In this document: positions 7,226 through 19,687 of the stretch, one piece after another
Layout of the letters: the number at the start of each line of letters is the position of its first letter
Position numbering within the stretch: position 1 is the stretch's first letter
Notes under the pieces: model-generated
Told to the model about the DNA's origin: nothing
Databases searched by the model: none
The model's input: the letters and a program-made list of their open reading frames with translations, nothing else
Translations under genes and position numbers: made by a program
NCBI RefSeq assembly: GCF_001750725.1
Contig: NZ_CP017279.1
Location: 1,860,001-1,924,000 of the forward strand
Reading direction: 5' to 3'
Origin: Enterobacter ludwigii
GTDB taxonomy: Bacteria; Pseudomonadota; Gammaproteobacteria; Enterobacterales; Enterobacteriaceae
DNA length: 64,000 nucleotides

Positions 7226-8122
7226 ATGGGTGATGTACAAAAAGGCGTCTGGCAGATGAGCCTGGCGATGTTAATTTCCGGCTCGATTGGCGCGTTTGTT
7301 CTGCTTTCCGGCCTGCCGGTGACGGAAGTGGTTTTCTGGCGATGCCTGATCGGGGCGATGGCCCTTTTTATTTTCATCCGAATAAGTCGAAAACCATTTA
7401 GTCCGCTCACCCGTGTCACGCTACTGCTGGCAATTCTGGGCGGTGTTGCGTTAGTGGTGAACTGGTTGCTGCTGTTCGCGGCTTATGAACGTATTTCAAT
7501 CGGCCTTTCTACCGTGGTCTATAACACTCAGCCGTTTATGCTGGTGTTGATGGGGATGTTTTTAGGAGAACGCGTGAGCCTGGTGAAATGGGGTTGGCTC
7601 GTTCTCGCCTTTGGCGGCGTGATCATCCTGCTCTCCAGTGAGCTGAATGGCGCACAGGGCAAAGGCTGGCTCGCAGGAATCGGTCTGGCGATGGGGGCCG
7701 CTTTCTTCTACGCACTGACAGCCATAATCGCCCGCAGACTGAAATCAGTTGCGCCCCAGCATATCGCCTTTATTCAGGTACTGACCGGCGTGGTCATGCT
7801 GTTGCCCTTCGCCCACCAGCCGGCATTTTCAGCTGATTTCCCCTGGCCGATTTTACTGACGTTAGGTGTCGTCCATACCGGGATCATGTATCAGTTGCTG
7901 TATAGCGCGATCCAGAAGCTCCCGACGCCCGTTACCGGTTCTCTGTCTTTTATCTATCCCGTGGTGGCCATAATTGTCGATAACGTGGTGTTCGGACACT
8001 CGCTGAATATTACGCAACTGGCAGGTGGTGCATTGATACTGTTTGCGGCGGCAGGTAATAACCTGGGCTGGGGCGAGAAAAAACCCCGCGAGTGCGGGGT
8101 TGGGATCAAATCAGCAAATTAG
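7226..8122 (+). CDS. EamA/DMT-family inner-membrane transporter
   Basis: 298 aa with about ten predicted membrane segments arranged as two EamA repeats (about 8-135 and 145-280), the drug/metabolite transporter fold, often an exporter of amino acids or metabolites. The start has a strong AGGAGGTG site at the ideal distance. Divergent from an Lrp-type regulator, suggesting an amino-acid-responsive efflux pair; the substrate cannot be read from sequence. The last 14 or so codons (from about 8078) lie over the intrinsic terminator of the convergent lipid operon, so its C-terminal tail (WGEKKPRECGVGIKSAN) is probably shaped by the terminator sequence. Confidence 0.9.
   Translation: MGDVQKGVWQMSLAMLISGSIGAFVLLSGLPVTEVVFWRCLIGAMALFIFIRISRKPFSPLTRVTLLLAILGGVALVVNWLLLFAAYERISIGLSTVVYNTQPFMLVLMGMFLGERVSLVKWGWLVLAFGGVIILLSSELNGAQGKGWLAGIGLAMGAAFFYALTAIIARRLKSVAPQHIAFIQVLTGVVMLLPFAHQPAFSADFPWPILLTLGVVHTGIMYQLLYSAIQKLPTPVTGSLSFIYPVVAIIVDNVVFGHSLNITQLAGGALILFAAAGNNLGWGEKKPRECGVGIKSAN
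8078..8101 (-). terminator. Intrinsic terminator of the 11-gene lipid operon
   Basis: On the minus strand an 8-bp perfect stem AACCCCGC/GCGGGGTT with a 4-base loop (8101-8082) runs into six T (8083-8078). It is 38 bp past the stop of the last operon gene and lies inside the coding 3' end of the convergent transporter gene. There is no T tract on the plus strand, so it acts for the minus strand. Confidence 0.85.
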
Positions 8123-8139
8123 CGTCTGGGGCGAACAGA

Positions 8140-9330
8140 CTAATCCTTGCGGATTAACGTGAGGAGATGTTCACGAGCCTGTTCAAGTTGCCTGAGTCCG
8201 CCGCGCAGCCAGATACCTTTTCTGAAAAACTCGACCCGGGCAGCATGATCGAACTGATCGTAGTCAACCGGGTACACCAGAGCCGGGATCCCTTTTTGAA
8301 TACAGTGCCACATAATCCCCGCCCCGCCGTGGTGTATCACGACATCGTAACGAGATAACCAGGCATCATAATCAACCCAATGCATACGTAAGAAATTCCC
8401 TGCCCGTTCACATTCCGCACTTTCCAGGCTGCCATCCGTGAAATGGAACACCCAGTCTGGCATCGTTTTCGCCAGAGCTGTTGCCGCTTTCGCTACGTCA
8501 TCTTTATGCCAGTCCAGATGTGTACCCAGCGTAATCAGGACATGCCGCTTTCCTTCAATGAAGGTCGGTTTCTCTCCATCTGCAGGCGGTGTGTACAGCG
8601 CAGGTCCAATAAAGGCTACCGATTCAGGCCAGGTCCGCTCAAATTCCATCTCTTTTTCGCCCAGAGCGAGAATGTGCGAGGGTGAATATGCCGTTTCACT
8701 GCCGTCAGGCCGATATAGCCGGGTTATGCCCGTCTGACGAATCACACCGCGAAAAAACCAAAAAACAAGACTCTTGAACAACCTGACTTTTTTCCTGTGG
8801 AGCAGGTGGCTTATCCGTTCCCACGCGGTGATGGCCGGCATCAGCCCACCACAATAAGCGGGTGGGCCGTCCGGTGCTTCAAGAACGCAGGGCGACGGCA
8901 AGCTACTCCACCAGAGAACATTCATCCGGGTACAGACAGGCCCCACGACGGGAAGTGTAAAGTCGGCGATGGCCAAATCCGGCACGCCTTCCCGATGCCA
9001 CGCCCTCTCCAGTTCGTCAGCAAAACCCTTAAGCAGGCCTACGACTGAACGAAACTGACGATAAAGCCTCACAGGATGCGTCTTGACGGCATATTTTGGA
9101 TTGGCGATAGACACTAACGGTGTATCGAAATCGCCGTCAAGAATAAGCCCTTGCAGTCCGGACGCCGCAATCCGCGCGCTGGCACCGCGAGTACTGATAA
9201 TCCGGACCTGATAATGCGCTGAAAGCGCCCTCCCCATTGCCAGCACGGGATGCAAATGTCCGGAAAATGGCGGGGCCAACAAATCAATTCGCGTGACGTT
9301 GTCAGGAATCAGATCAAACAAGCGTTGCAT
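8140..9330 (-). CDS. UGT-like (GT1) glycosyltransferase, lipid operon gene 11
   Basis: GT-B glycosyltransferase of the UDP-glucuronosyl/CrtX-like type. The N-terminal acceptor-domain motif LLAPPFSGHLHPVLAMG and the C-terminal nucleotide-sugar (PSPG-like) motif VIHHGGAGIMWHCIQKGIPA followed by DYDQFDHAARV are both intact. The start is uncertain: the ATG at 9330 lies 8 bp after the preceding stop and is preferred (396 aa); ATG 9372 would add 14 residues and overlap the previous gene, and the frame is open further up. Such enzymes often glycosylate hydrophobic alcohols, so it may decorate the lipid made by the operon. Last gene before the terminator. Confidence 0.85.
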   Translation of the reverse strand: MQRLFDLIPDNVTRIDLLAPPFSGHLHPVLAMGRALSAHYQVRIISTRGASARIAASGLQGLILDGDFDTPLVSIANPKYAVKTHPVRLYRQFRSVVGLLKGFADELERAWHREGVPDLAIADFTLPVVGPVCTRMNVLWWSSLPSPCVLEAPDGPPAYCGGLMPAITAWERISHLLHRKKVRLFKSLVFWFFRGVIRQTGITRLYRPDGSETAYSPSHILALGEKEMEFERTWPESVAFIGPALYTPPADGEKPTFIEGKRHVLITLGTHLDWHKDDVAKAATALAKTMPDWVFHFTDGSLESAECERAGNFLRMHWVDYDAWLSRYDVVIHHGGAGIMWHCIQKGIPALVYPVDYDQFDHAARVEFFRKGIWLRGGLRQLEQAREHLLTLIRKD

Positions 9331-9338
9331 ATCAGACT

Positions 9339-9899
9339 CTATTTCCGTATTTGATTTATAAATCGCTGACATAAACAGACCAGCTCCGGCTGCGAGAGAT
9401 AGTCCATATGACCGCAGGGTATGCGCTCGTCCGCCTGGTGAAACCAAAGGCGAGAAATCCAGTCTTGCTGCCCCTGAACCAAAAGATGATGGCAGTCAGG
9501 ACGCTGACGAGCCACGGGGCCGTAAGCAAAAATACTCACGCGAGACAGGACTGAGGACGGCAGGTGAAGATTATTAAAGAGTTCCAATCCACAGCTTCCG
9601 GAAAGTAACAGCGTGTGATCCGCCGATTCCAGCAACGCGATCGCAATGTTTCGATAGCGCTCGCCAAACGCTGCCCTGCGAGAAGTGAGGTAGTCCCGCG
9701 CATTGCTGCAACTTGCACGCAATAAACCCGTATCACACCATGGCTGGGTTTGAGGTATCCAGGGGAAATTTTCAGTGACAGGCATGGCCCCCTCCGTCAG
9801 CAAAGACTGGAGGAACAAACTCTGCACCGGGCTGAGCGCAAGGTTGCCGGGACGGCTTCTTCCCGTGATAAAAGCGATGTTAAGTCGCATGCCGGTCAC
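9339..9899 (-). CDS. Small alpha/beta-hydrolase-like protein, lipid operon gene 10
   Basis: 186 aa, not recognised as a named family. Its pattern fits a divergent serine alpha/beta-hydrolase: a nucleophile-elbow-like LLLSGSCGLEL (S102, with small residues at -2 and +2), a later strand ending HLLVQGQQDW with D146, and PCGHMDYL with H164, in the Ser-Asp-His order and spacing of that fold. No signal peptide is seen. It overlaps the upstream glycosyltransferase by 4 bp (ATGA). It could be a thioesterase, a lipase-like deacylase, or a degenerate non-catalytic member. Confidence 0.6.
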   Translation of the reverse strand: MTGMRLNIAFITGRSRPGNLALSPVQSLFLQSLLTEGAMPVTENFPWIPQTQPWCDTGLLRASCSNARDYLTSRRAAFGERYRNIAIALLESADHTLLLSGSCGLELFNNLHLPSSVLSRVSIFAYGPVARQRPDCHHLLVQGQQDWISRLWFHQADERIPCGHMDYLSQPELVCLCQRFINQIRK

Positions 9900-11020
9900 A
9901 ATGAGCTGAAGCGGTCATTACTGAAAACGCGATAGCGACGCGAACGCCAGTGAATATTCCGGTTGAACAAGGCATGGATTAAATGCACAGGCTGCAACAG
10001 CTCTGATAACACCGACATCACCGGCCTTGCGGAAATAGTCTCTGACACTAAACGCTGTATACGGCGCAAGGCAACGTGGCGAACGAGAAGGACCACCGCC
10101 AGTAACACGCAATTTATCCCCCCATTGAATGCGAGCACCACCATCGCCCAAAGCAGTAACGGATGTAAACCCTGAAGAAGAAAGATTGCCAGATTCGTAC
10201 CAGCAGGCTTCTCACGCATCAACAATGTGGCGAACAAAAACCAGCGGTGCATCTGACGAAAATACCGTCTGACGTCAGGTACGCTGGTTTGTACGCTCAC
10301 AGGCGCGACAGACTGTACGATGTTTACCCCTTGCTGAGTAAGAAGCGTTGCCAGCGCGAGATCATCGGTCAGATGTCGAAGGATGGGCGAAAATCCCCCC
10401 ACGTTTTCCAGCACACGTAAAGGTAACAGGTAGCACATGCCATTTAGCGTTAACGGTCTGACAAAAGGCAGCAACGGCAGATACGTCAGCGCTGAGTTAT
10501 CATTAACAAATTGTGCCAGCAGTCGCGACGGTAAGTTGTCGGTAGCCACATACCAGGGCAGCGCGGTGACAAGCGAATGATCATCAAGCGCGGCAAGCAT
10601 CGTGTTTAGCGATGTCGCCGTCAGTACCGCATCGTCATCTAAAATCAGGACCGTCAGGGTCTTAACCTGCTTTCTTCCTTGCTCAAGCTTATATAACTTT
10701 GGATTTATCCCTTCCGGCGCTTCAGGGTATGCGCAGATATGAATAGCGCTCTGAGGGTAACGCGTCTGCAACCGCTGCGTTACCCTTGCGGCCTCCGCGT
10801 CGTCCACGTCAGTCAGCCAAAGAAACGTTGCGCCAGGCAAATTTTGAAGACTCGCGGCCAACACCGTCTCTAACGCAGGATCACCGCTGAGTATGGGTTG
10901 CATGACCGTAATGTCGCTGAAAGAGCGAGAGATGTTATCCCTTGTGGCTGTAAGCATTTTCTGCGTGATACAGACTTTGAAAAGCAGAATGGCCAGCCAT
11001 GCTATTGCGATAATTAACAC
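9896..11020 (-). CDS. HpnI/ceramide-glucosyltransferase-like GT2-fold enzyme, gene 9
   Basis: Membrane-bound glycosyltransferase of the GT-A fold, 374 aa. An N-terminal membrane anchor (about 1-18) precedes the catalytic domain with a DDD (128-130) metal site, a TDDLAL segment, and the processive/GT21-type signature RQMHRW. Two or more hydrophobic segments follow at about 280-330. This arrangement is that of ceramide glucosyltransferases and hopanoid-cluster HpnI, which transfer a sugar to a lipid alcohol at the inner membrane. The start is a GTG overlapping the preceding stop by 7 bp. The acceptor is unknown. Confidence 0.82.
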   Translation of the reverse strand: MLIIAIAWLAILLFKVCITQKMLTATRDNISRSFSDITVMQPILSGDPALETVLAASLQNLPGATFLWLTDVDDAEAARVTQRLQTRYPQSAIHICAYPEAPEGINPKLYKLEQGRKQVKTLTVLILDDDAVLTATSLNTMLAALDDHSLVTALPWYVATDNLPSRLLAQFVNDNSALTYLPLLPFVRPLTLNGMCYLLPLRVLENVGGFSPILRHLTDDLALATLLTQQGVNIVQSVAPVSVQTSVPDVRRYFRQMHRWFLFATLLMREKPAGTNLAIFLLQGLHPLLLWAMVVLAFNGGINCVLLAVVLLVRHVALRRIQRLVSETISARPVMSVLSELLQPVHLIHALFNRNIHWRSRRYRVFSNDRFSSL

Positions 11021-11988
11021 AGGCGCTCTTCCTTGAGTTGTTCTAAAAACGTACGCAGGCTGACGTCAAAATCCATTGATGGTGGACCAAAGTCATCCAG
11101 CATACGCGTAACATTCAGGGTGTTAGTATAGCCAAAGACGGCAACGCCAAAACGGGTAATCGGGGGTTCTCCCGGCAACGGCAGCCAGCGCCACAGCCTC
11201 TCAAGTATGCCAGCAAAACACATCGCTGTTCCCAGGCGCACGGTTTTATGCGGTTGAGGCAAACCCAACTGCTGCAAGACGTCACATAACAGCCGATGGA
11301 TTTCGACAGATTGACTGGCGGAGATGTTATAACACGGGCGGAGATGACTGCGTTTCACGGCACGCATCAGGTAATCCCCTAGCACATCGACGTGCATAAT
11401 GTCGGCCTGCACTTTTACACCGCGGCTAAGGATAGAGGGCAGCTTTCCTTTTTTAGCCGCAGCCAACAGAGGCGGTAAGAGCAAGCGATCGCCTTCACCA
11501 AATACGGCACAAGGGCGAAAAATGGTTTTCTCACCCTGATACGTCTCAACAAGGCACTCTGCCTGACGTTTTGTGCGCCCATATTGGCTGCTAAATTCGG
11601 GGCCGATAGCATCACATTCACGCAGTCCTGGCTGGTGCGCAAAACGGTAATAAACCGCCGCGCTTGAAATAAATATGAGTCGTGGAAAGCCACGATGACG
11701 GCAAAAATCGATAACATGCCGGGTCGTCTCAACGTTATCCCGGTAATAATCGTGCTCACGACCCCAGGGCGAAGTCCTTCCTGCCGCGTGAATAACCACA
11801 TCGGGTACGACATCTAGCGTATGAAGCTGGTCTAACCCAAGTGCGTAATACTCAACTGATGCGGGCAACGCGACATGTTCACGGCGCCCGACGCCGCACA
11901 GCGAAACGCCGTCAGTATCGGCAAAACGCCGGATAAAAGCCCCGCCAATGAAACCCGATGCTCCGGTTACCATAATCTTCACGGCCAT
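11014..11988 (-). CDS. NAD-dependent epimerase/dehydratase (extended SDR) B, gene 8
   Basis: 324-aa extended short-chain dehydrogenase with N-terminal nucleotide motif GASGFIG (9-15) and active-site S109/Y136/K140 (QYGRTK). It is a paralogue of the SDR at 16879-17895: both carry SPWG after the NAD-domain strand (73-76 here), AVYY/AVYF before the catalytic Tyr, and EPPITRF/EPPVTRY near the C-terminus. It resembles 3-beta-hydroxysteroid dehydrogenase/OleD-type enzymes that reduce or oxidise a lipid keto/hydroxyl group. Overlaps the desaturase gene by 10 bp. Confidence 0.83.
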   Translation of the reverse strand: MAVKIMVTGASGFIGGAFIRRFADTDGVSLCGVGRREHVALPASVEYYALGLDQLHTLDVVPDVVIHAAGRTSPWGREHDYYRDNVETTRHVIDFCRHRGFPRLIFISSAAVYYRFAHQPGLRECDAIGPEFSSQYGRTKRQAECLVETYQGEKTIFRPCAVFGEGDRLLLPPLLAAAKKGKLPSILSRGVKVQADIMHVDVLGDYLMRAVKRSHLRPCYNISASQSVEIHRLLCDVLQQLGLPQPHKTVRLGTAMCFAGILERLWRWLPLPGEPPITRFGVAVFGYTNTLNVTRMLDDFGPPSMDFDVSLRTFLEQLKEERLC

Positions 11989-13091
11989 TCTCCGTGTCGC
12001 TCAGGGCGTTCACCCATGCGCCTGAGAAAACGCTGCTGGAGAGACATTAAATCGGCGAGGGTGAGCCGTCGATAATCCAGCCCTTCTCGCGCGGCGACAT
12101 CCTCGATGATTCGGCTCAACTGAGGATAATGGCGATGACTCCAGTGCGGGAAAAGATGGTGAGTCAGATGAAGATTGAGGCCACCCAGCCAGTAACCCAT
12201 GAACGCGGGCCGTGTCGACCAGTCAAAGGTCGTTGCAAAGGTATGGGAAAGCCTGCCTTGAGCCATTTTACCCCCGTCAGGGGGGAGCTGAGCGCTGCCC
12301 TTTGCCCAGTGCGTCCCGATGACGAGCATGACGAATATCAGAGAAGAGATCATCTGACAGAGCATATAGGTCAGCAAAATTGAACCGGCGCTAAATCTGT
12401 CGGCCAACAACCACATGGGTAACACGAGGCTGAACGCTGCGTGCAAGGCTTTACCCGTCAAAAAAAACGTCCAGCCGATAATACCCTGCTGCGCCAGATG
12501 AGGCGTCACCGGTGTATATCCCCCTCTGTCGAGCCAGTCAACAATCCAGATATACCAGGGGAAGGTTAATGCGGCGACCAACGGCCAGTAGTAGCGCTGC
12601 GCCCGCATAAAGGGGCGCCAGCGCTGCCAGGGCGTCTGGCGCATAAGACCATTTTCTGCGGTGTCCGGATCGTAACATTCTATGTTGGTGAATCCATGAT
12701 GAAATCTGACATGGCGAACGCGCCAGCAATCGGGATCCAGGCCGAGTGGGATAGCGACAATACGGTTTACCCACGCGTTAGCTTTTTTACCTTTCAGAAA
12801 GGCATTATGAGACGCATCATGCACGACGTTCACGGTCAGCAACATCGCGAAAACGATGGCGGCAAAATACCATGAAAAATACAGGGGCAGGTCACTCTGA
12901 TGAAGCGCTAACGCATAACTTCCAATACAACCACCAGCCAGCATCACTGTTTTAACCAGCATTCGGCCATCTGCATAGCGATGATCGCCCCGTTCTGTTA
13001 ACAACGCGCGTGTTTCGCTGTGAAGTGCTGCAACCAGCCCGGGGGGATCGGCGGGAAAGGTCAACCGCTTGTCAGGATTAAACTGGTTCAC
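11979..13091 (-). CDS. Membrane fatty-acid desaturase, gene 7
   Basis: 370-aa di-iron membrane desaturase. Three histidine boxes are intact: HDASH (91-95), HVRFHH (127-132) and HLTHH near 308-312, with further His in FPHWSHRH. Hydrophobic pairs lie at about 45-90 and 180-260. Family members introduce a double bond or hydroxyl into acyl chains of lipids, using O2 and electrons from ferredoxin or cytochrome b5-like partners. No fused electron-transfer domain is present. The start is GTG 13091 with AGGGGGAT upstream, overlapping the previous stop by 14 bp. Confidence 0.85.
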   Translation of the reverse strand: MNQFNPDKRLTFPADPPGLVAALHSETRALLTERGDHRYADGRMLVKTVMLAGGCIGSYALALHQSDLPLYFSWYFAAIVFAMLLTVNVVHDASHNAFLKGKKANAWVNRIVAIPLGLDPDCWRVRHVRFHHGFTNIECYDPDTAENGLMRQTPWQRWRPFMRAQRYYWPLVAALTFPWYIWIVDWLDRGGYTPVTPHLAQQGIIGWTFFLTGKALHAAFSLVLPMWLLADRFSAGSILLTYMLCQMISSLIFVMLVIGTHWAKGSAQLPPDGGKMAQGRLSHTFATTFDWSTRPAFMGYWLGGLNLHLTHHLFPHWSHRHYPQLSRIIEDVAAREGLDYRRLTLADLMSLQQRFLRRMGERPERHGEWP

Positions 13092-14205
13092 TTATCCCCC
13101 TTTTTGTTCTGCGCCCAAGGCCATAGGTGAGTGCAATACCGTGTGCGGCCAGTGCCGCCATAACTGCAACCCAATAGACGTGATTCCAGCCCCAATAACC
13201 CAAGAAAAGCAGCGGTAAAGAGAGCGTGACCAGACACCACATCATCACTCCCCAGCGCTGCCCCTCGCTGATCCCACCCAATGCGACAGAGCCAGCTGCC
13301 AGCAATATAAACAACAGGGACTGCGCAGCACCCACGTTATCTATGCTGTATCCGTAGCGCTGGATGTAGCCCAGAACAAGCGCAAACAACAGAATAGCCC
13401 CGACACCTGTCATTAATATCGAACAGTCAAACTGGCGATGTCGGAGGCGAACCGTTTTAAAAATACCTGCCATTTGCAAAAAAGGAAGATTACTTTCCTG
13501 CATCGGGTTTAACGATGGCTTCCTGCCTTTTACCCCATAGGTCGACTTCTCCTGCGAGGGCATCTCGCAGAACGTACCGAATAATTTATCCCAGAAAATA
13601 AAGGTGCCACCGTAGTTGGTATCGGCATAGCGCTTATTATTAAGGTGATGAACGCGATGATGTGTCGGGGTAACAAATACCTTTTCTAGCCACCCCAGCG
13701 TTGGCGTTAATGCGTTATGGTTAAAAAACTGAATGCTGTAATGCACGATGGAAACCGCCAGAAAGACACTCAGCGGTACGCCAGCCAGCGCTAACACCAA
13801 AAAGAAAGGGATTGACGTTAATGACGAGTACCAGGAATTTCGCACCCCCAGCGACAGGTTATAGTTCTCCCCCTGATGGTGAACAACGTGAACAGCCCAC
13901 AGTAGCCGAAGCTGGTGATGGAGACGATGAAGCCAGTAGAAACCAACGTCCCATGCTAACAATGTAAAGAGCCATACCCCGACGGCAGGCCATCCCTCAA
14001 AAAGATTCAGGCTAAAGTGTTCCAGCACAAATCCGTAGCAAAGCACCTCCAGGCACCGGAAAAACCACAGCATAATGTGCCCGGAATTGAGATTGAAAAT
14101 GATATCGAGCCAGTCAATATTCTGCCGCCGTGTGAACTGAAGAATACAGGCCTCAGCACACACGAAAAACAGCATAAAAAGAACGGGAAACAGGAGTTCA
14201 CTCAC
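13078..14205 (-). CDS. Sterol-desaturase-family (fatty acid hydroxylase) membrane enzyme, gene 6
   Basis: Di-iron hydroxylase-superfamily membrane protein, 375 aa from the GTG at 14205, which overlaps the PAP2 stop by 8 bp and has AAAGGA upstream; an ATG at 14283 is possible but adds 26 residues over the preceding gene. Histidine clusters: HRLHH, HVVHH and HHRVHH, plus NHNAL. Hydrophobic segments fill residues 1-120 and the C-terminal 120 residues. Relatives hydroxylate sterols, sphingoid bases, fatty acids or carotenoids, so this gene probably oxidises the lipid chain. An O2 requirement contrasts with the anaerobic nar genes next door. Confidence 0.83.
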   Translation of the reverse strand: MSELLFPVLFMLFFVCAEACILQFTRRQNIDWLDIIFNLNSGHIMLWFFRCLEVLCYGFVLEHFSLNLFEGWPAVGVWLFTLLAWDVGFYWLHRLHHQLRLLWAVHVVHHQGENYNLSLGVRNSWYSSLTSIPFFLVLALAGVPLSVFLAVSIVHYSIQFFNHNALTPTLGWLEKVFVTPTHHRVHHLNNKRYADTNYGGTFIFWDKLFGTFCEMPSQEKSTYGVKGRKPSLNPMQESNLPFLQMAGIFKTVRLRHRQFDCSILMTGVGAILLFALVLGYIQRYGYSIDNVGAAQSLLFILLAAGSVALGGISEGQRWGVMMWCLVTLSLPLLFLGYWGWNHVYWVAVMAALAAHGIALTYGLGRRTKRGISEPV

Positions 14206-14815
14206 CGGGTATTCCTTTATATTTTTGTCTGCGCACGTCCAGATGCCCTGCCAGCCATACACTGGCCCCTGCCAGCAAAACACCCGCCATTAAATCAATA
14301 AACAGATGCCTTCTCAGCTGAAGGATAGAGTAAGCAATAGCACACGCCCAGATGACGCTTGCAACCGCCATCCAGCGTAAACGCCCTGCCGCTATCGCCC
14401 AGACGGCGAGTGCCGTCAGCGCAGCGTGCAAAGAGGGAAAGCAATTTTGACGGGAATCGACAGAGACCAGCCACCCCAAGACTCTGGAAGAAACACCCTC
14501 TCCTGCCAGCGTGGGATGCACCATGGTGGTCGGCCATAACAGATATATGATGCCTGCCCCCAGCGCCGAAAATTGCATGGACCGGGCAAGCCACCGCACT
14601 CGGTCATACGGCGTTAATAAATATCCCAACGGGACAATCAAGAAAAAGGACAAGTAGAGCCACACCGCATCAGGCGAAAAGGGAATTAACGCGTCAACCC
14701 GTAGTGGGGTTAAACGATAACCTTCACCCTGTAACCTGTCGCAAAGCGAATAAACGACCCCGACCGACCCCCACCCCACTAGCATCTGCTTGAGGCGTTG
14801 CAGAAATTCACTCAT
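14198..14815 (-). CDS. PAP2-family membrane phosphatase, gene 5
   Basis: 205 aa with about five membrane segments. The phosphatase motifs PSLH (131-134 counted from the ATG at 14827) and RRHLFID (172-178) match the C2 and C3 motifs of type 2 phosphatidic acid phosphatases; the C1 lysine/arginine motif is not clear. Such enzymes dephosphorylate lipid phosphates or pyrophosphates at the membrane. The ATG at 14815 is preferred since it forms an ATGA overlap with the upstream stop and follows GGGGAAAAGA; ATG 14827 is in frame four codons earlier. Confidence 0.82.
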   Translation of the reverse strand: MSEFLQRLKQMLVGWGSVGVVYSLCDRLQGEGYRLTPLRVDALIPFSPDAVWLYLSFFLIVPLGYLLTPYDRVRWLARSMQFSALGAGIIYLLWPTTMVHPTLAGEGVSSRVLGWLVSVDSRQNCFPSLHAALTALAVWAIAAGRLRWMAVASVIWACAIAYSILQLRRHLFIDLMAGVLLAGASVWLAGHLDVRRQKYKGIPGE

Positions 14816-16098
14816 TCTTTTCCCCATTCACGGACTATGCGCCGTCGTTTTGCGTCAAAGTTCGGTGATACGCTTCGGGACTGCAGCACCCATACCAGCC
14901 GGGAAGTGTCTATTCCCTGTAACGTAAACAGCTCATTCAGCGCGTCGCGGCAGTGAGGAAGTATTGCTGCGTCACAATCCGCGGTAAGACACAGTCTCTC
15001 TGCTTCTGTTTGTACCAGGCGATAGTCTGCGGTAAGTGGGAGCGTGACGGCCAGCACGCGGCTGCAGGGGTCGGCAAAAATAACCTGCGGTTTGCCCGTG
15101 CTATCCGGGAGAAGGAGTTGATCGTCCTGTCGACCCTCAATACGCTCAATCGCGCGCGCCGCACTTCCACACGAGCACCGCGCCTCGCGGGCAACCAGTA
15201 TGTCATCAAGGCGGTAACGGACGATGGGCTGCGTGCTGCGGGTGAAATCGGTGATAACAGGCGTAAAGCGCTTCTCATCCAGCCAGTGGGGCTCAACGTG
15301 AATAAATTCCTCGTTCAGATGTAACGTCCCAAAAGAACAGGTTGAAGCTAAAAAACCCTCTGTTGCCTGGTAGATTTCACCCACGCTACCAAATACCTGG
15401 TGGATAAGTGCCCTGTCCTGTTCCTCCAGAACTTCGGCGACAGAAATCACCTTTTTGACATTCAGCTGCAGCGTTCCGTCCAGTACCGCCAGCGCCAGCG
15501 CACGTAATACCTGTGCGGGGGCAACAATGATCGTCGGAGAAAACTGTTCTACATGGCGCAATTGCGGCTGAAACGGCGCCAGTAAATCGTAAAATTCCAG
15601 GCTCAACCAGCGGCTGCTCACACTCTGGTAAAGGTTATTATTTGCCCTCAGAAACAGTGCAACCCGTTCCCGGGCAAAAAGACCGTCCGGTAAGGCCCTG
15701 GCAAGCATACCTGCAGCCCAAATTTGCTGCTCCTTCGGACTGACAACAAATAACCCACGTCTGCCGGAAGTACCTGATGACAGGCCCACGCTAAATCGGC
15801 CTATTTTCGGACTGAAGTCCCGGCTCTGTTCACTTTTCAGCGCGCAGGCCATCAGCGCGTCACGCTTAAGACCTTCAGTGTTCATTTCATCGAAATGCGT
15901 CATCATCAACGCCTTGTCCATCAGCGGCCACTGTCCGAACGGCACCGCGCGAAATCGCTGAAACCATGGGCTTTTCGATAACACGTTCCGCCTGAAGCGA
16001 TGCAGTTTTTTTTCCTGCCATCTCTCCAGTTTTTCACGTTCGGTAAAACGCCGTCTGCGGGTGCAGAAATAGCGCCACATCAACATAATGAGGTTCAC
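14812..16098 (-). CDS. F390-synthetase/PaaK-like adenylate-forming enzyme, gene 4
   Basis: 428 aa, shorter than the usual acyl-CoA ligase and lacking part of the large domain, in the manner of the F390-synthetase-related group. AMP-binding motifs: SSGTSGRRG (107-115), YQATEG (243-248) and YRLDDI (295-300); a CSCGS Cys motif at 308-312 precedes RIEGRQDD. These enzymes activate a carboxylate with ATP. In this operon it could activate a fatty or beta-hydroxy acid, a role comparable with OleC, but the substrate is unknown. Start is GTG 16098, overlapping the MBL gene stop by 4 bp (GTGA). Confidence 0.82.
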   Translation of the reverse strand: MNLIMLMWRYFCTRRRRFTEREKLERWQEKKLHRFRRNVLSKSPWFQRFRAVPFGQWPLMDKALMMTHFDEMNTEGLKRDALMACALKSEQSRDFSPKIGRFSVGLSSGTSGRRGLFVVSPKEQQIWAAGMLARALPDGLFARERVALFLRANNNLYQSVSSRWLSLEFYDLLAPFQPQLRHVEQFSPTIIVAPAQVLRALALAVLDGTLQLNVKKVISVAEVLEEQDRALIHQVFGSVGEIYQATEGFLASTCSFGTLHLNEEFIHVEPHWLDEKRFTPVITDFTRSTQPIVRYRLDDILVAREARCSCGSAARAIERIEGRQDDQLLLPDSTGKPQVIFADPCSRVLAVTLPLTADYRLVQTEAERLCLTADCDAAILPHCRDALNELFTLQGIDTSRLVWVLQSRSVSPNFDAKRRRIVREWGKE

Positions 16099-16901
16099 AA
16101 ATCGCCCTCATGACACAGACGAATATCCACTTTACCGTTTTTCCAGAGTTGATTGAGTTGCCGGAGCGTCTGGTAATAAGCAGAGGGATCGGACATCACC
16201 AGACTGGCAAGCCGTGAAGGACCGCGCATCTCCCGGTAATTGTCAGGAGACCAGGCCGCATCTGCGGCCAAAAGTGTCCAGCCGTCCTCTGTCAGGACGA
16301 ATGCCCCGAAGTGTCCGGCCGCATGGCCTGCAAGCGGGATCAAAATAATTTCGCCCTGACTGTCCGGCAAAACATAGCCCCGCTCAAACGGAGCAAGCGC
16401 CTCGGGCAGCCTCAGGGTTTCGAAACCTTCAATGAAGCGCAATGACGACTCAAACCCGGAGGGGAAAAGTCCTGGCACAAATGCCTGACGCAGGGCGGCA
16501 AATCCTCTCAGCGCTCTCACCTGCTGCCAGCCCTCACCAGAACAAATACAGCTAACATCGGGGAAATCACGCAACCCTGCGACGTGATCGGCATGGAAGT
16601 GCGACAAGATAATCGCATCGATATCGCCCCCGACCAGGCCTTGTGCGTAAAGCTGTTGAGCCAGGGACTGTTTGGGGTCGAAATAGACCGGCGTGACTTG
16701 CCGGTAAATGCGAAAAATGCCCGAGCGCGTGTAGTGTTCAAACCAGGAGGAATAGCCGGTATCCCATAGCCATCGGTGTGAACCGACCTCCAGGAGCCAG
16801 GCTCGAGCGGGAAATTTGCACACCCTGAGACCAGCGCCTTTTAGAGCCATGCAGCCGATATGGGTGCAATATCCTGTTTCAAACGCGGTAATCTTTGCCA
16901 T
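16095..16901 (-). CDS. Metallo-beta-lactamase-fold hydrolase, gene 3
   Basis: 268 aa with a complete di-metal site: HFHADH (H101, H103, D105, H106), H193 in AGHAAGH, D214 in AADAAW and H264 in LCHEGDL. The pattern is closest to the N-acyl-homoserine-lactonase/quinolonase-like branch, so hydrolysis of a lactone or thioester is a reasonable guess. No signal peptide. It overlaps the SDR upstream by 23 bp and the adenylating enzyme downstream by 4 bp. Confidence 0.86.
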   Translation of the reverse strand: MAKITAFETGYCTHIGCMALKGAGLRVCKFPARAWLLEVGSHRWLWDTGYSSWFEHYTRSGIFRIYRQVTPVYFDPKQSLAQQLYAQGLVGGDIDAIILSHFHADHVAGLRDFPDVSCICSGEGWQQVRALRGFAALRQAFVPGLFPSGFESSLRFIEGFETLRLPEALAPFERGYVLPDSQGEIILIPLAGHAAGHFGAFVLTEDGWTLLAADAAWSPDNYREMRGPSRLASLVMSDPSAYYQTLRQLNQLWKNGKVDIRLCHEGDL

Positions 16902-17895
16902 TCGTCCTCAGCCATTCTCCCGTTAGCGCGATGCCTTCTGCCATTGAAAAGCGAGGGGTATAGCCCAACTCCTCTACGGCTTTTTTAGCGCTCAGCGTCA
17001 TATCGAAACAAACCGTTCCCGCACTGTAACGGGTGACGGGAGGTTCCTTATTGATGCACTTTCCGACTAATTCCATGCCACGCGCGGCCAGTGACACCAC
17101 CGGCCAGGGAATTGACCGGATCTGGTAGCGTAACCCCAGTTGCTGACGCAGCAACGCGTCAAGCATATCAACCAGCCGCTGCGGCTGGTGATTGGTCACG
17201 TTATAGATGCTGCCGGAATAAAGAGGCTGGCCCAAGGTTGCACGTTCCATAGCAAAGACCACGTTTTGTACGAAGGTCAAATCCAGAAGCGCTTCTCCTC
17301 CCCTGGGCAGGAGCAGTACCCCTCCGTCCTGATGGAGCTGACGCAGCAGGCGAGGAACGATCACCTTATCATGGGGACCGAAAAGCCCACGCGGGCGCAA
17401 AATGATGAACGTTGTCGCGCTGAAGTTTGCCACCGCATCTTCAATGATGCGTTCGGCTGCACGTTTGCTGCTGGCATAGTGGCTGGAAAATGTGTTCGCC
17501 AGGTAGGTTTCCGGAAGATCGTAGTGATGTTGAAAATCGAAGTAGACCGCAGGGGTAGAAATGTGGACAAAACGCGGAATGCCCGCGGTGCCCGCAGCCA
17601 TCGCCAGTTTTTTTGTTGCAATGACGTTAGCCTGCCAGAAAGCGTCCCTCCCTCCCCAGGGAGAAGATTTCGCTGCGCAGTGCCACACGGCATAGCACCC
17701 CTCCATGAGCCTGGCGCATTGGTCCAGAGACGCCAGGGACAAGTCGAGAGGGATAAACGTCGCGCCCACATGCTTTAAATGTGCACCTTCGACCTGATTA
17801 CGCCCCGTCGCCACTACGCTAAAGCCACGTTCCAGCAAATAGTGGACAGCGTTACGCCCCAGCCCGCTGGTTGCCCCTGTCACCAGGATCTTCAT
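16879..17895 (-). CDS. NAD-dependent epimerase/dehydratase (extended SDR) A, gene 2
   Basis: 338-aa extended SDR: GATSGLG nucleotide motif (7-13), S113, Y140 and K144 (YASSK) as active-site residues, SPWG at 78-81. Overlaps the KAS III-like gene by 4 bp (ATGA). A KAS III-like enzyme followed by such an SDR recalls oleA/oleD, where the SDR reduces the beta-keto group made by condensation; that role is inference. It is a paralogue of the SDR at 11014-11988, so the operon may carry out two redox steps on similar substrates. Confidence 0.84.
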   Translation of the reverse strand: MKILVTGATSGLGRNAVHYLLERGFSVVATGRNQVEGAHLKHVGATFIPLDLSLASLDQCARLMEGCYAVWHCAAKSSPWGGRDAFWQANVIATKKLAMAAGTAGIPRFVHISTPAVYFDFQHHYDLPETYLANTFSSHYASSKRAAERIIEDAVANFSATTFIILRPRGLFGPHDKVIVPRLLRQLHQDGGVLLLPRGGEALLDLTFVQNVVFAMERATLGQPLYSGSIYNVTNHQPQRLVDMLDALLRQQLGLRYQIRSIPWPVVSLAARGMELVGKCINKEPPVTRYSAGTVCFDMTLSAKKAVEELGYTPRFSMAEGIALTGEWLRTNGKDYRV

Positions 17896-18899
17896 GGCAT
17901 AAGTACCATGCCAGCCAGCGTCAGGCCTGCTGCAGTACCAATAAGCATCGCGGGTTTTCCCGGCGTGAAACGACCATGGGTTACCGCTTCATGCAGCGCC
18001 GTAGGGATGGAGGCGGCCACCTGGTTGCCGTAGTGACGGTAAACATCAATTAAGATGGATTCAGGGACGCCCAGCCGCTTACGCATGTGTTCAAGAGAAA
18101 GATGGCTGGCCTGATGCGGAATGACGGTACCGATATCCGACAGTTGCAGACCGCATTTTCCCAGCAGCCGCGCGAAGTAGTCATCAATCAGCGAAGAGGC
18201 ATACCGGAACAGCGCCTTACCCTGCATATGGAACATAAAATCACTGTCGCTCATGCCCGCTCTGGGGTTGCGACGCGTTCCTCCCGCACGGATTTCACAG
18301 AGTTCGCTGCCATCCGGGTACATCTCGATCAGGCTTGTTATAATCCCGCTGTTGCCGTCACCACGCTCCACGATCGCACACGCCGCACCATCACCGAAAA
18401 TCAACGAAGACTCTTCGTGGCTCCAGTCAATGCCGCGCGATGCTAAATCAGCTGAAACAATGGCGATGCGACGGTATGCGCCTGTATTCAATAAACCTGC
18501 AGCAACTTCTAAAGCGGAAATAAAGCTGACACAGCTGCTGTTAATATCAAACCCCGCCATACCCGCGGGCATACCCGCCGCCTTGATAATATGAACCGCA
18601 CTGCAGGGAAGCGCTTGTATGGCAATAGCCGATGCACAAATCAACAGGTCTATGGAATCAGGTGATATCGTTCCGGCATGTAGCGCGTTATGTAGCGCCT
18701 GTGCGGCCAGCCCGGCCTGGCTGGCGGTGTGAGAAGCGTGGTAGCGGGTAAGAATACCGGACCGTTTTTCAACGTAGCCAGGCGGTTTTCCTAACCATGA
18801 ATCCAGATCGCTGGATGTCAGTCTTTCAGCAGGCAAGGCAATGCCTGTTGAGATAATTTTTATTGCGGCCGAAATTTCCGGCTCTGTTGATTGACCCAC
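17892..18899 (-). CDS. 3-oxoacyl-ACP synthase III-like condensing enzyme, gene 1
   Basis: Thiolase-fold condensing enzyme, 335 aa from the GTG at 18899. Catalytic triad present: Cys123 in NSSCVSF, His262 in IPHQASH, Asn292 in GNQVAAS; the C-terminal GTAAGLTLAGM loop is typical. Members join an acyl-CoA/ACP to malonyl-ACP (FabH) or two acyl chains head to head (OleA). The frame extends to a TTG at 18962, but GTG 18899 has GGGAG 7 bp upstream and lies after the putative promoter, whose -35 covers the TTG. First gene of the operon. FabH itself is elsewhere in such genomes, so this is a specialised paralogue. Confidence 0.85.
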   Translation of the reverse strand: MGQSTEPEISAAIKIISTGIALPAERLTSSDLDSWLGKPPGYVEKRSGILTRYHASHTASQAGLAAQALHNALHAGTISPDSIDLLICASAIAIQALPCSAVHIIKAAGMPAGMAGFDINSSCVSFISALEVAAGLLNTGAYRRIAIVSADLASRGIDWSHEESSLIFGDGAACAIVERGDGNSGIITSLIEMYPDGSELCEIRAGGTRRNPRAGMSDSDFMFHMQGKALFRYASSLIDDYFARLLGKCGLQLSDIGTVIPHQASHLSLEHMRKRLGVPESILIDVYRHYGNQVAASIPTALHEAVTHGRFTPGKPAMLIGTAAGLTLAGMVLMP

Positions 18900-18934
18900 A
18901 CCAGTGCTCCCTTCACTAGCTAATCCAACCGCTA

Positions 18935-18962
18935 ATAATATAGGAGCCCCTTCTTTACACAA
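18935..18962 (-). promoter_or_regulatory. Putative sigma-70 promoter of the lipid operon
   Basis: On the minus strand TTGTGT (18962-18957), 16-bp spacer and TATTAT (18940-18935) give a good -35/-10 pair; the start point would be near 18928, leaving a leader of about 29 nt to the GTG at 18899. This also explains why the frame upstream of that GTG need not be coding. Confidence 0.55.
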
Positions 18963-18972
18963 TCTGAAATTA

Positions 18973-18993
18973 ACGGGAGCGTCCTGCTCCCGT
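18973..18993 (-). terminator. Hairpin after narI, weak terminator
   Basis: Perfect 8-bp stem ACGGGAGC/GCTCCCGT with a 5-base loop, 17 bp after the narI stop. The bases after it on the minus strand are TAATTTC, not a solid T run, so termination of the nar transcript may be partial and read-through into the lipid operon is possible. Confidence 0.5.
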
Positions 18994-19009: not shown

Positions 19010-19687
19010 TTAGCGACGGGCGCGAACAATCTGATATTTGCGCGTCAGATACTCCACCGGTGCACTCCAGATATGCACCAGACGAGAGAACGGGAACAGC
19101 ACAAACAGCGTCATCCCGAGCACCAGGTGCACGCGGAAGATAAACGCCACACCGTCAAGGTGCTCAGACGCACCACCGTGGAAAGTCACCACAGACTGCG
19201 CCCAGCCGACCAGCTTCATCATTTCGCTGCCATCCATATGCTGAGCCGAGAACGGAATGGTCAGCAGACCCAGCGCACACTGCACCATCAGCAGGGACAA
19301 AATCAGAATGTCCGCGCCGGTGGTAGTCGCGCGAACACGCGGGCTGAACAGACGGCGTTTGAGCAGCAGTAAACCGCCCACCAGCGTCATCACGCCGCAG
19401 GCACCGCCGGCAATCATCGCCATTTTCTGCTTCACCTCAATCGGCAGGAATGACTCATACATCCAGTGCGGCGTCAGCATTCCGAGGAAGTGACCCGCAA
19501 AAATCCCCAGGATCCCGATGTGGAACAGGTTAGAAGCCAGGTTCATCCCTTTGCGATCGAGCATCTGGCTGGAGGCAGCACGCCAGGTGTACTGGCCGTA
19601 GTCATAACGCAGCCAGCTTCCCACCAGGAACACGGTGCCCGCGATATACGGGTAAATGTCAAAGAAGAACATGTTCAGGAAGTGCAT
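19010..19687 (-). CDS. narI: Respiratory nitrate reductase A, gamma subunit (cytochrome b)
   Basis: Membrane cytochrome b of NarGHI: takes electrons from quinol and passes them to NarH. 225 aa, standard, with five membrane segments. Heme-ligand histidines H56 and H66 (LFHIG and GHFLG) and the C-terminal pair in VTFHGG and RVHLV are present. It overlaps narJ by one base. Last gene of narGHJI; followed after a weak hairpin by the lipid operon, where E. coli has the tRNA-Tyr locus. Confidence 0.97.

Follow-up and report, generated by a model that had tools for sequence, protein, structure and literature searches.

The window analysed here, a stretch of 64,000 nucleotides from Enterobacter ludwigii (contig NZ_CP017279.1, positions 1,860,001 to 1,924,000 of the forward strand), carries on its minus strand eleven genes that an earlier inspection of the letters (hereafter the sequence-only reading) had described as one overlapping operon for a lipid or glycolipid. 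We find this anatomy confirmed and the operon to be built from parts: a core of four genes, to which two blocks, B and C, are optionally joined. Eleven intact minus-strand frames lie between positions 8140 and 18962 in the open reading frame list, and the genes fill positions 8140–18899 between narI (19010–19687, minus strand) and the convergent eamA (7226–8122, plus strand). Counted with the better-placed starts of KS (GTG at 18899), FAH (GTG at 14205) and UGT (ATG at 9330), the successive overlaps amount to 4, 23, 4, 16, 8, 14, 10, 7 and 4 bp, followed by a gap of 8 bp in front of UGT, just as had been claimed. The genes are:

17892–18899, minus strand: KS (ketosynthase), KAS III-fold condensing enzyme, MxnB/CorB-like; C123, H262 and N292 invariant, with Leu97 where OleA and PpyS have their glutamate
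16879–17895, minus strand: SDR1, extended short-chain dehydrogenase/reductase (SDR) with conserved YxxxK; nearest NCBIfam model OleD (155.8 bits, cut-off 580)
16095–16901, minus strand: MBL, hydrolase of metallo-beta-lactamase fold, closest to lactonases, with HxHxDH and the distal His/Asp conserved
14812–16098, minus strand: adenylate-forming (adenylating) enzyme, F390-related; TIGR02304 match over residues 4–426, 624 bits against a curated cut-off of 251.9; no Pfam domain
14198–14827, minus strand: PAP2, PAP2_3-type membrane phosphatase/phosphotransferase; module B
13078–14205, minus strand: FAH, sterol-desaturase/fatty-acid-hydroxylase family with conserved His boxes, longest open frame from 14283; module B
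11979–13091, minus strand: FAD, membrane fatty-acid desaturase, in two copies in many relatives; module B
11014–11988, minus strand: SDR2, OleD-like extended SDR; module C
9896–11020, minus strand: GT2, Glyco_transf_21 (ceramide-glucosyltransferase/HpnI-like) glycosyltransferase; module C
9339–9899, minus strand: HYP, 186 aa, no Pfam family, minimal alpha/beta-hydrolase fold (model); module C
8140–9330, minus strand: UGT, GT1/MGT-like glycosyltransferase with an HHGGAG motif; module C

The earlier domain calls hold: profile matches were obtained to KAS III, two SDRs of the Epimerase/3beta-HSD type, MBL, TIGR02304, PAP2_3, FA_hydroxylase, FA_desaturase and Glyco_transf_21, the UGT/MGT-like domain of UGT scores at or just under the Pfam cut-offs, and an AlphaFold model backs the alpha/beta-hydrolase-like call for HYP. 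As had been noted, the genes within the operon include no acyl carrier protein (ACP), polyketide synthase (PKS) module or transporter; domain searches revealed no serine palmitoyltransferase-type gene in the operon either. We considered eamA as the operon's transporter and rejected it because eamA is also present in congeners whose site is empty. The G+C fraction at third codon positions is 0.52–0.62 in the operon genes, 0.67–0.74 in narI, narJ and narH, and 0.57–0.63 in an lrp-like gene, purU and eamA. The Rfam scan returned two tRNAs and nothing else.

Core and optional modules

The operon consists of a core (KS, SDR1, MBL and the TIGR02304 enzyme), an optional block B (PAP2, the hydroxylase FAH and the desaturase FAD) and an optional block C (SDR2, the GT21-like GT2, HYP and UGT). 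A genome-wide scan with the adenylating enzyme recovered the core order KS-SDR1-MBL-TIGR02304 in 30 of 30 loci. Within a family-level sample of 295 genomes, 41 had a TIGR02304 match, which exceeded the cut-off in 40, the window's genome included; 37 of the 40 other family places (10 of these 40 being records already among the scan loci) hold a complete core, L093 and L096 are without KS, and L097 has fragments only. Six of the eight distant genomes examined keep the core order (L098–L103), and in two (L106, L107) nothing beyond a weak adenylating-enzyme homologue was seen; on a Paenibacillus plasmid the order is kept with an ATP-grasp gene inserted between KS and SDR1, and on the distant plasmid L057 with other genes interspersed. 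After removal of eleven duplicate loci and inclusion of the E. coli, plasmid and distant loci, and with L093, L096 and L097 not used, 70 complete-core sets were available (69 and the window; 62 near, 8 distant). The 62 near sets, window included, divide into 39 with B only, 11 with B and C, 9 with C only and 3 with neither, four sets at contig ends (L017, L020, L083, L090) being scored by what is visible. Block order is kept among different neighbour genes, and on a quick core tree with warned long branches, B changes at least five times (L083 left out) and C at least four times (all four contig-end sets left out). The gene-order search that the sequence-only reading had suggested thus finds the order recurring across genera. 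Its single pathway of eleven steps, in which condensation, reduction, hydroxylation or desaturation and glycosylation would need all genes, does not survive: core+B and core+C each occur alone, and a six-gene form exists besides.

This six-gene form, KS-MBL-SDR2-GT2-HYP-UGT, was found by a HYP-based search in one genus of another family of the same class (4 of 147 genomes of that family). It is complete in L136 and L140, the GT2 of L140 being matched in two pieces; L141 and L142 are consistent with it and are cut by contig ends. SDR1 and the adenylating enzyme are absent from the six-gene operons, and one of the genomes (G661) is not among the 89 in the class sample with any TIGR02304 match, the other three not having been searched. 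Consequently, KS, MBL and one SDR can exist with module C as an operon of their own, and the window's operon has the appearance of the six-gene line merged with the B line.

The core is present in 672 of 5426 complete E. coli genomes (about 12%, which is not a population frequency, as the collection is weighted towards what is sequenced) at about 72% nucleotide identity; these copies were found only in distant mode, a nucleotide search of E. coli at about 85% identity yielding nothing. When an E. coli copy served as query, at least 80% of the seven-gene (core+B) stretch was recovered in 671 of the 672. The 60 carriers listed include CFT073, Nissle 1917, ATCC 25922, NRG 857C and an O25b:H4-ST131 strain. 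In EC28 and CFT073 the seven-gene form lies between narI and tRNA-Tyr, a site at which K-12 MG1655 has no operon. Two E. coli records stand apart: an E. coli 'plasmid' (L054, NZ_CP141085.1) with narGHJI, the operon, purU, galU, hns and adhE is either a chromosome piece on a plasmid or a mislabelled replicon, and strain S7 (H100, NZ_CP107128.1), the one such case among the 60 carriers listed, matches in two places with 70% in the best, its operon probably being interrupted. True TIGR02304 members are rare in the class and phylum samples (over the cut-off in 2 of 369 and 7 of 398 genomes, the window's genome in both), and of the six others in the phylum sample, four had already come up in the family-level sample.

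The operon also occurs in Serratia, in Pseudomonas and in symbionts of the bee gut. Two of the last, Gilliamella and Snodgrassella (L030, L031), have cores that are sisters in the quick tree, with an SH-aLRT (approximate likelihood ratio test) value of 100 and both flagged for letter make-up; their hosts belong to different proteobacterial groups and yet the cores are sisters, so transfer of the core within the bee gut is probable. The Pseudomonas copies (L023, L024, L026) are nested among Serratia copies, which suggests lateral transfer. Broken copies exist in two genomes of one genus (G023, G168; L133, L135), with a KS piece fused to SDR1 and GT2 pieces beside HYP and UGT; by eye, an integrase-like frame lies nearby, and the two share an 818-aa protein beside UGT, similar to an 815-aa frame after UGT in L012. 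In G215 the core+B set and module C occupy separate places, the latter (L134) together with a remnant of TIGR02304. Distant core operons bear other tailoring genes, namely annotated ATP-grasp and GNAT genes on the Paenibacillus plasmid (L056) and, judged by eye from the sequence, ATP-grasp-like and Rieske-like frames in L100–L102.

The operon genes are under purifying selection. Between the window and its nearest same-site relative (L003 and L104, which are the same contig), the ratio of nonsynonymous to synonymous substitution rates (dN/dS) is 0.06–0.21 in all eleven genes, at dS values of 0.97–2.05 that are near saturation; closer pairs give 0.06–0.30 for all eleven genes (L061/L065) and 0.06–0.30 for eight genes (L063/L064), and two E. 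coli strains give 0.13–0.33 for six genes and 0 for MBL. In the E. coli pair the 'SDR2' row was disregarded, being SDR1 matched by the SDR2 query. In the dN/dS comparison as a whole, stops in the FAH and UGT rows probably lie in over-extended N-terminal parts of the queries. Since the gene order recurs across genera and dN/dS is low in all eleven genes, a chance arrangement is excluded. narI is more constrained than the operon genes, with dN/dS of 0–0.04 in the three distinct pairs that yielded it. Its dS between the window and L104 (0.58) is lower than that of every operon gene, which agrees with separate transfer of the operon, though codon constraint could also account for it.

At least 95% of close relatives preserve the catalytic motifs of the enzyme families: Cys-His-Asn in KS, YxxxK in the SDRs, HxHxDH and the distal ligands in MBL, the His boxes of FAH and FAD, YQATEGF and IEGR in the adenylating enzyme, DDD and HRW in GT2, HHGGAG in UGT, and GSCG and GHM in HYP.

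Genomic site and candidate transcription signals

Four further features mark the borders of the operon:

18935–18962, minus strand: candidate promoter, sigma-70-like TTGTGT-16-TATTAT, before KS
18973–18993, minus strand: hairpin between narI and KS, with a weak T-run on the minus strand
8082–8101, minus strand: terminator-like hairpin downstream of UGT, within the 3' end of eamA
8116–8139, strand not given: incomplete, degenerate narI 3'-end copy next to eamA, recognised by eye in alignments

Across the genus, close KS genes turned up in just 3 of the 50 genomes searched, one of them the window's. In four congeners, narI and eamA stand end to end with nothing between them, and one of these (G1048) carries core+B elsewhere in its genome. 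The narI 3'-end remnant at 8116–8139 is probably an insertion scar, and the hairpin at 8101–8082 recurs in the four congeners with an empty site, where it adjoins the end of narI. Because the narI copy lies beside eamA and the downstream hairpin is the narI-adjoining hairpin of the empty sites, the evidence favours arrival of the operon by insertion over its loss elsewhere. An imported tract at the narI 3' end, as a possible trace of a donor-borne insertion, was rejected: sliding identity to congeners has no clear drop.

Of the shared promoter and terminator posited by the sequence-only reading, the promoter has its candidate site before KS, and relatives have promoter-like sites in the corresponding position (a judgement by eye), although a consensus promoter scan did not list it; the terminator corresponds to a hairpin that lies in eamA and also occurs where the operon is absent. 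Between narI and KS, the T-run of the hairpin is longer in several same-site relatives (by eye). Read-through from nar as the sole route of expression was rejected in view of these terminator-like hairpins and promoter-like sites; some read-through may occur in the window, the T-run of its narI-KS hairpin being weak.

Condensing enzyme and partner enzymes

In comparisons with the KS family profile, MxnB scores 204 bits and CorB 192, followed by the best FabH (178), E. coli FabH (about 145) and PqsD (97); a Foldseek search with the AlphaFold model of KS (mean confidence, pLDDT, 86.4) likewise ranks CorB and MxnB first. A plain FabH was rejected, as KS misses the cut-off of the FabH model TIGR00747 (197.4 bits against 292.1); it also falls short of the PRK07204 KAS III equivalog NF005541 (329.1 against 402), and the genome holds a second KAS III gene, 29% identical to KS, that is its likely FabH. 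According to PMC4578411, OleA (E117) and PpyS (E105) use a glutamate base contributed by the partner subunit, at a position that is Val in MxnB and CorB. This position is Leu in 66 and Ile in 2 of the 68 seed KS sequences, and among 20 in-frame core-type KS (the row L136_KS6, cut out of frame with 6 stops, being ignored) it is Leu in 13, Ile in 6 and Met in 1; Glu occurs in none of either set. By the argument of PMC4578411, absence of the glutamate would suit a beta-ketoacyl nucleophile. A GG[T/S]R segment is common to 18 of the 20 core-type KS and to MxnB and CorB, and is present in neither of two FabHs. KS thus appears nearer to the chain-fusing MxnB and CorB than to FabH, by a modest margin.

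SDR2, like SDR1, is far below the OleD cut-off (NF042422; 130.2 bits). The nearest solved relatives of MBL in a PDB sequence search are lactonases, and PqsE is named in none of the 25 matches listed. The same kind of search gave weak PaaK-type matches for the adenylating enzyme and named no substrate for it or for FAD. PMC5467263 (P. aeruginosa ATCC 27853) and PMC9823363 (a transposon list from kiwifruit Pseudomonas) each contain a table row naming a 'coenzyme F390 synthetase', a possible member of this family. The HYP model (pLDDT 95.7) has a small alpha/beta-hydrolase fold of lipase/thioesterase-like type by VIA and Foldseek, which give fold and not function; S102, G104, E106 and H164 are invariant in 57 sequences. 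GT2 matches Glyco_transf_21 and, over nearly its whole length, HpnI; the 'HpnI-like' label applies only in the sense of a distant match. An identity with HpnI was dropped, and with it a hopanoid reading of GT2: the HpnI model TIGR03472 gives 89.8 bits, 220 below the cut-off of 310, and the genome has no match to hopene cyclase (TIGR01507).

Proposed pathway and known systems

We tentatively propose, at somewhat less than even confidence, that the operon is a portable, modular lipid-biosynthesis unit making a fused-chain (2-alkyl-3-hydroxy) lipid that B oxidises and C glycosylates. A fused-chain beta-hydroxy lipid is inferred from the KS affinity, the OleD-like SDRs, the lactonase-related MBL and the HYP fold; substrates and order of steps are conjectural. 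The adenylate-forming enzyme would activate a carboxylic acid, and KS would join two chains derived from host fatty-acid synthesis, an acyl group on its cysteine and a beta-ketoacyl thioester. SDR1 would then reduce the keto group, and MBL would free the product by hydrolysis of a thioester or lactone, the likely core product being a 2-alkyl-3-hydroxy (mycolate-like) acid or a compound closely derived from it. Module B may hydroxylate and desaturate the chains with oxygen and handle a phospho-group; di-iron enzymes of these families need oxygen. Module C would yield a glycosylated version through two sugar transfers, and where B is joined to C, as in the window, a doubly modified glycolipid would be expected.

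Several observations weigh against this proposal: the lead of MxnB and CorB over the best FabH is modest; the KS model has a pLDDT below 50 at residues 93–97 and 203–211, which are the base-position and GG[T/S]R segments, so that both comparisons rest on sequence; both SDRs are far below the OleD cut-off; the roles of MBL and PAP2 come from their families; and SDR1 and the adenylation step are not universal, the six-gene form lacking both. The modest lead is also what keeps a one-chain route of the Pseudomonas quinolone signal (PQS) type in contention, in which the acid is activated, KS adds two carbons from malonyl-ACP or malonyl-CoA in the manner of FabH or PqsD, an SDR acts as the beta-keto reductase and MBL as the thioesterase, giving a simple beta-hydroxy acid for B to oxidise and C to glycosylate. 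The KAS III fold of KS and the match of enzyme classes to pqsA, pqsD and pqsE speak for it, but KS is closer to MxnB than to PqsD (204 against 97 bits) and the best PDB matches of MBL are lactonases, PqsE being named in none of the 25 listed; we regard it as unlikely. A two-in-one operon, in which B and C act on different molecules, KS and MBL are shared and each product has its own reductase (SDR1, SDR2), would account for the B-only and C-only forms, the separate tailoring sets and the use of SDR2 alone in the six-gene form. It seems quite improbable, however, as C-only forms near the window retain SDR1 and the adenylating enzyme and the tight packing (4–23 bp overlaps) suggests one route. 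Very improbable, finally, is an OleABCD-like route to an olefin or beta-lactone, with chain fusion by KS, reduction by SDR1, closure of a beta-lactone by the adenylating enzyme and its opening or decarboxylation by MBL: the functional classes parallel OleA, OleD, OleC and OleB, OleD is the best NCBIfam model of the SDRs and the nearest solved relatives of MBL are lactonases, but the catalytic Glu of OleA is replaced by Leu, the OleD score of 155.8 is far from the required 580, the adenylating enzyme is a TIGR02304 member, and glycosylation is ill-suited to a hydrocarbon.

With the fused-chain proposal as our preferred reading, the lipid or glycolipid interpretation stands; no cluster of known product matching the operon was found, nor any paper on the operon in the open-access literature searched, most subscription papers lying outside that search. 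Its enzyme families, HYP excepted, are known, and what is new is the gene combination and its modular history. A bolder and unlikely extension is that a mycolate-like pathway exists in enterobacteria, E. coli ST131, CFT073 and Nissle included, with a free-standing chain-fusing KS and its own adenylating enzyme and reductase leading to 2-alkyl-3-hydroxy lipids, and that the window's operon is a natural merger of the oxygen-tailored (B) and the glycosylated six-enzyme (C) pathways, whose product would be a glycolipid of a new class, either secreted or in the outer envelope. About 12% of the complete E. coli genomes examined, among them those of the widely used Nissle 1917 and ATCC 25922, carry a pathway to which we could assign no described product; its absence from K-12 at that site may explain why it was overlooked. 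The core, core+B, core+C and core+B+C forms provide a ready-made comparison for reading the product stepwise.

Among known systems, MxnB and CorB of myxopyronin and corallopyronin biosynthesis are, among solved structures, the nearest to KS in sequence and fold and share with it Cys-His-Asn, a base position without Glu and GG[T/S]R; they differ in that identity is about 31% and that, according to PMC4578411 and PMC12304814, they turn PKS-made chains into alpha-pyrones, the operon having neither PKS nor ACP. Ladderane clusters, the subject of PMC2649909, gave no lead. The HpnI/GT21 ceramide glucosyltransferases resemble GT2 in the Glyco_transf_21 match and the nearly full-length HpnI match, and are set apart by the missed HpnI cut-off, the lack of a hopene cyclase match in the genome and of a serine palmitoyltransferase-type gene in the operon. 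OleABCD, which makes olefins and beta-lactones, has the same complement of a KS, an OleD-like SDR, an adenylate-forming enzyme and a hydrolase and the same head-to-head logic, whereas the operon is without the catalytic Glu, has SDRs below the OleD cut-off and an MBL that is not OleB, and adds glycosyltransferases and desaturases. The alkylquinolone genes pqsABCDE share with it a ligase, a FabH-like KS and an MBL hydrolase; PqsD is a poorer match than MxnB, CorB or FabH, and the operon adds SDRs, desaturases and glycosyltransferases. The mycolic acid route (FadD32, Pks13, CmrA) employs Pks13 in place of the free-standing KAS III-fold KS found here and, without any homology being claimed, follows the same logic as the proposed pathway: an adenylating enzyme, condensation of two chains, reduction by an SDR and attachment to sugar.

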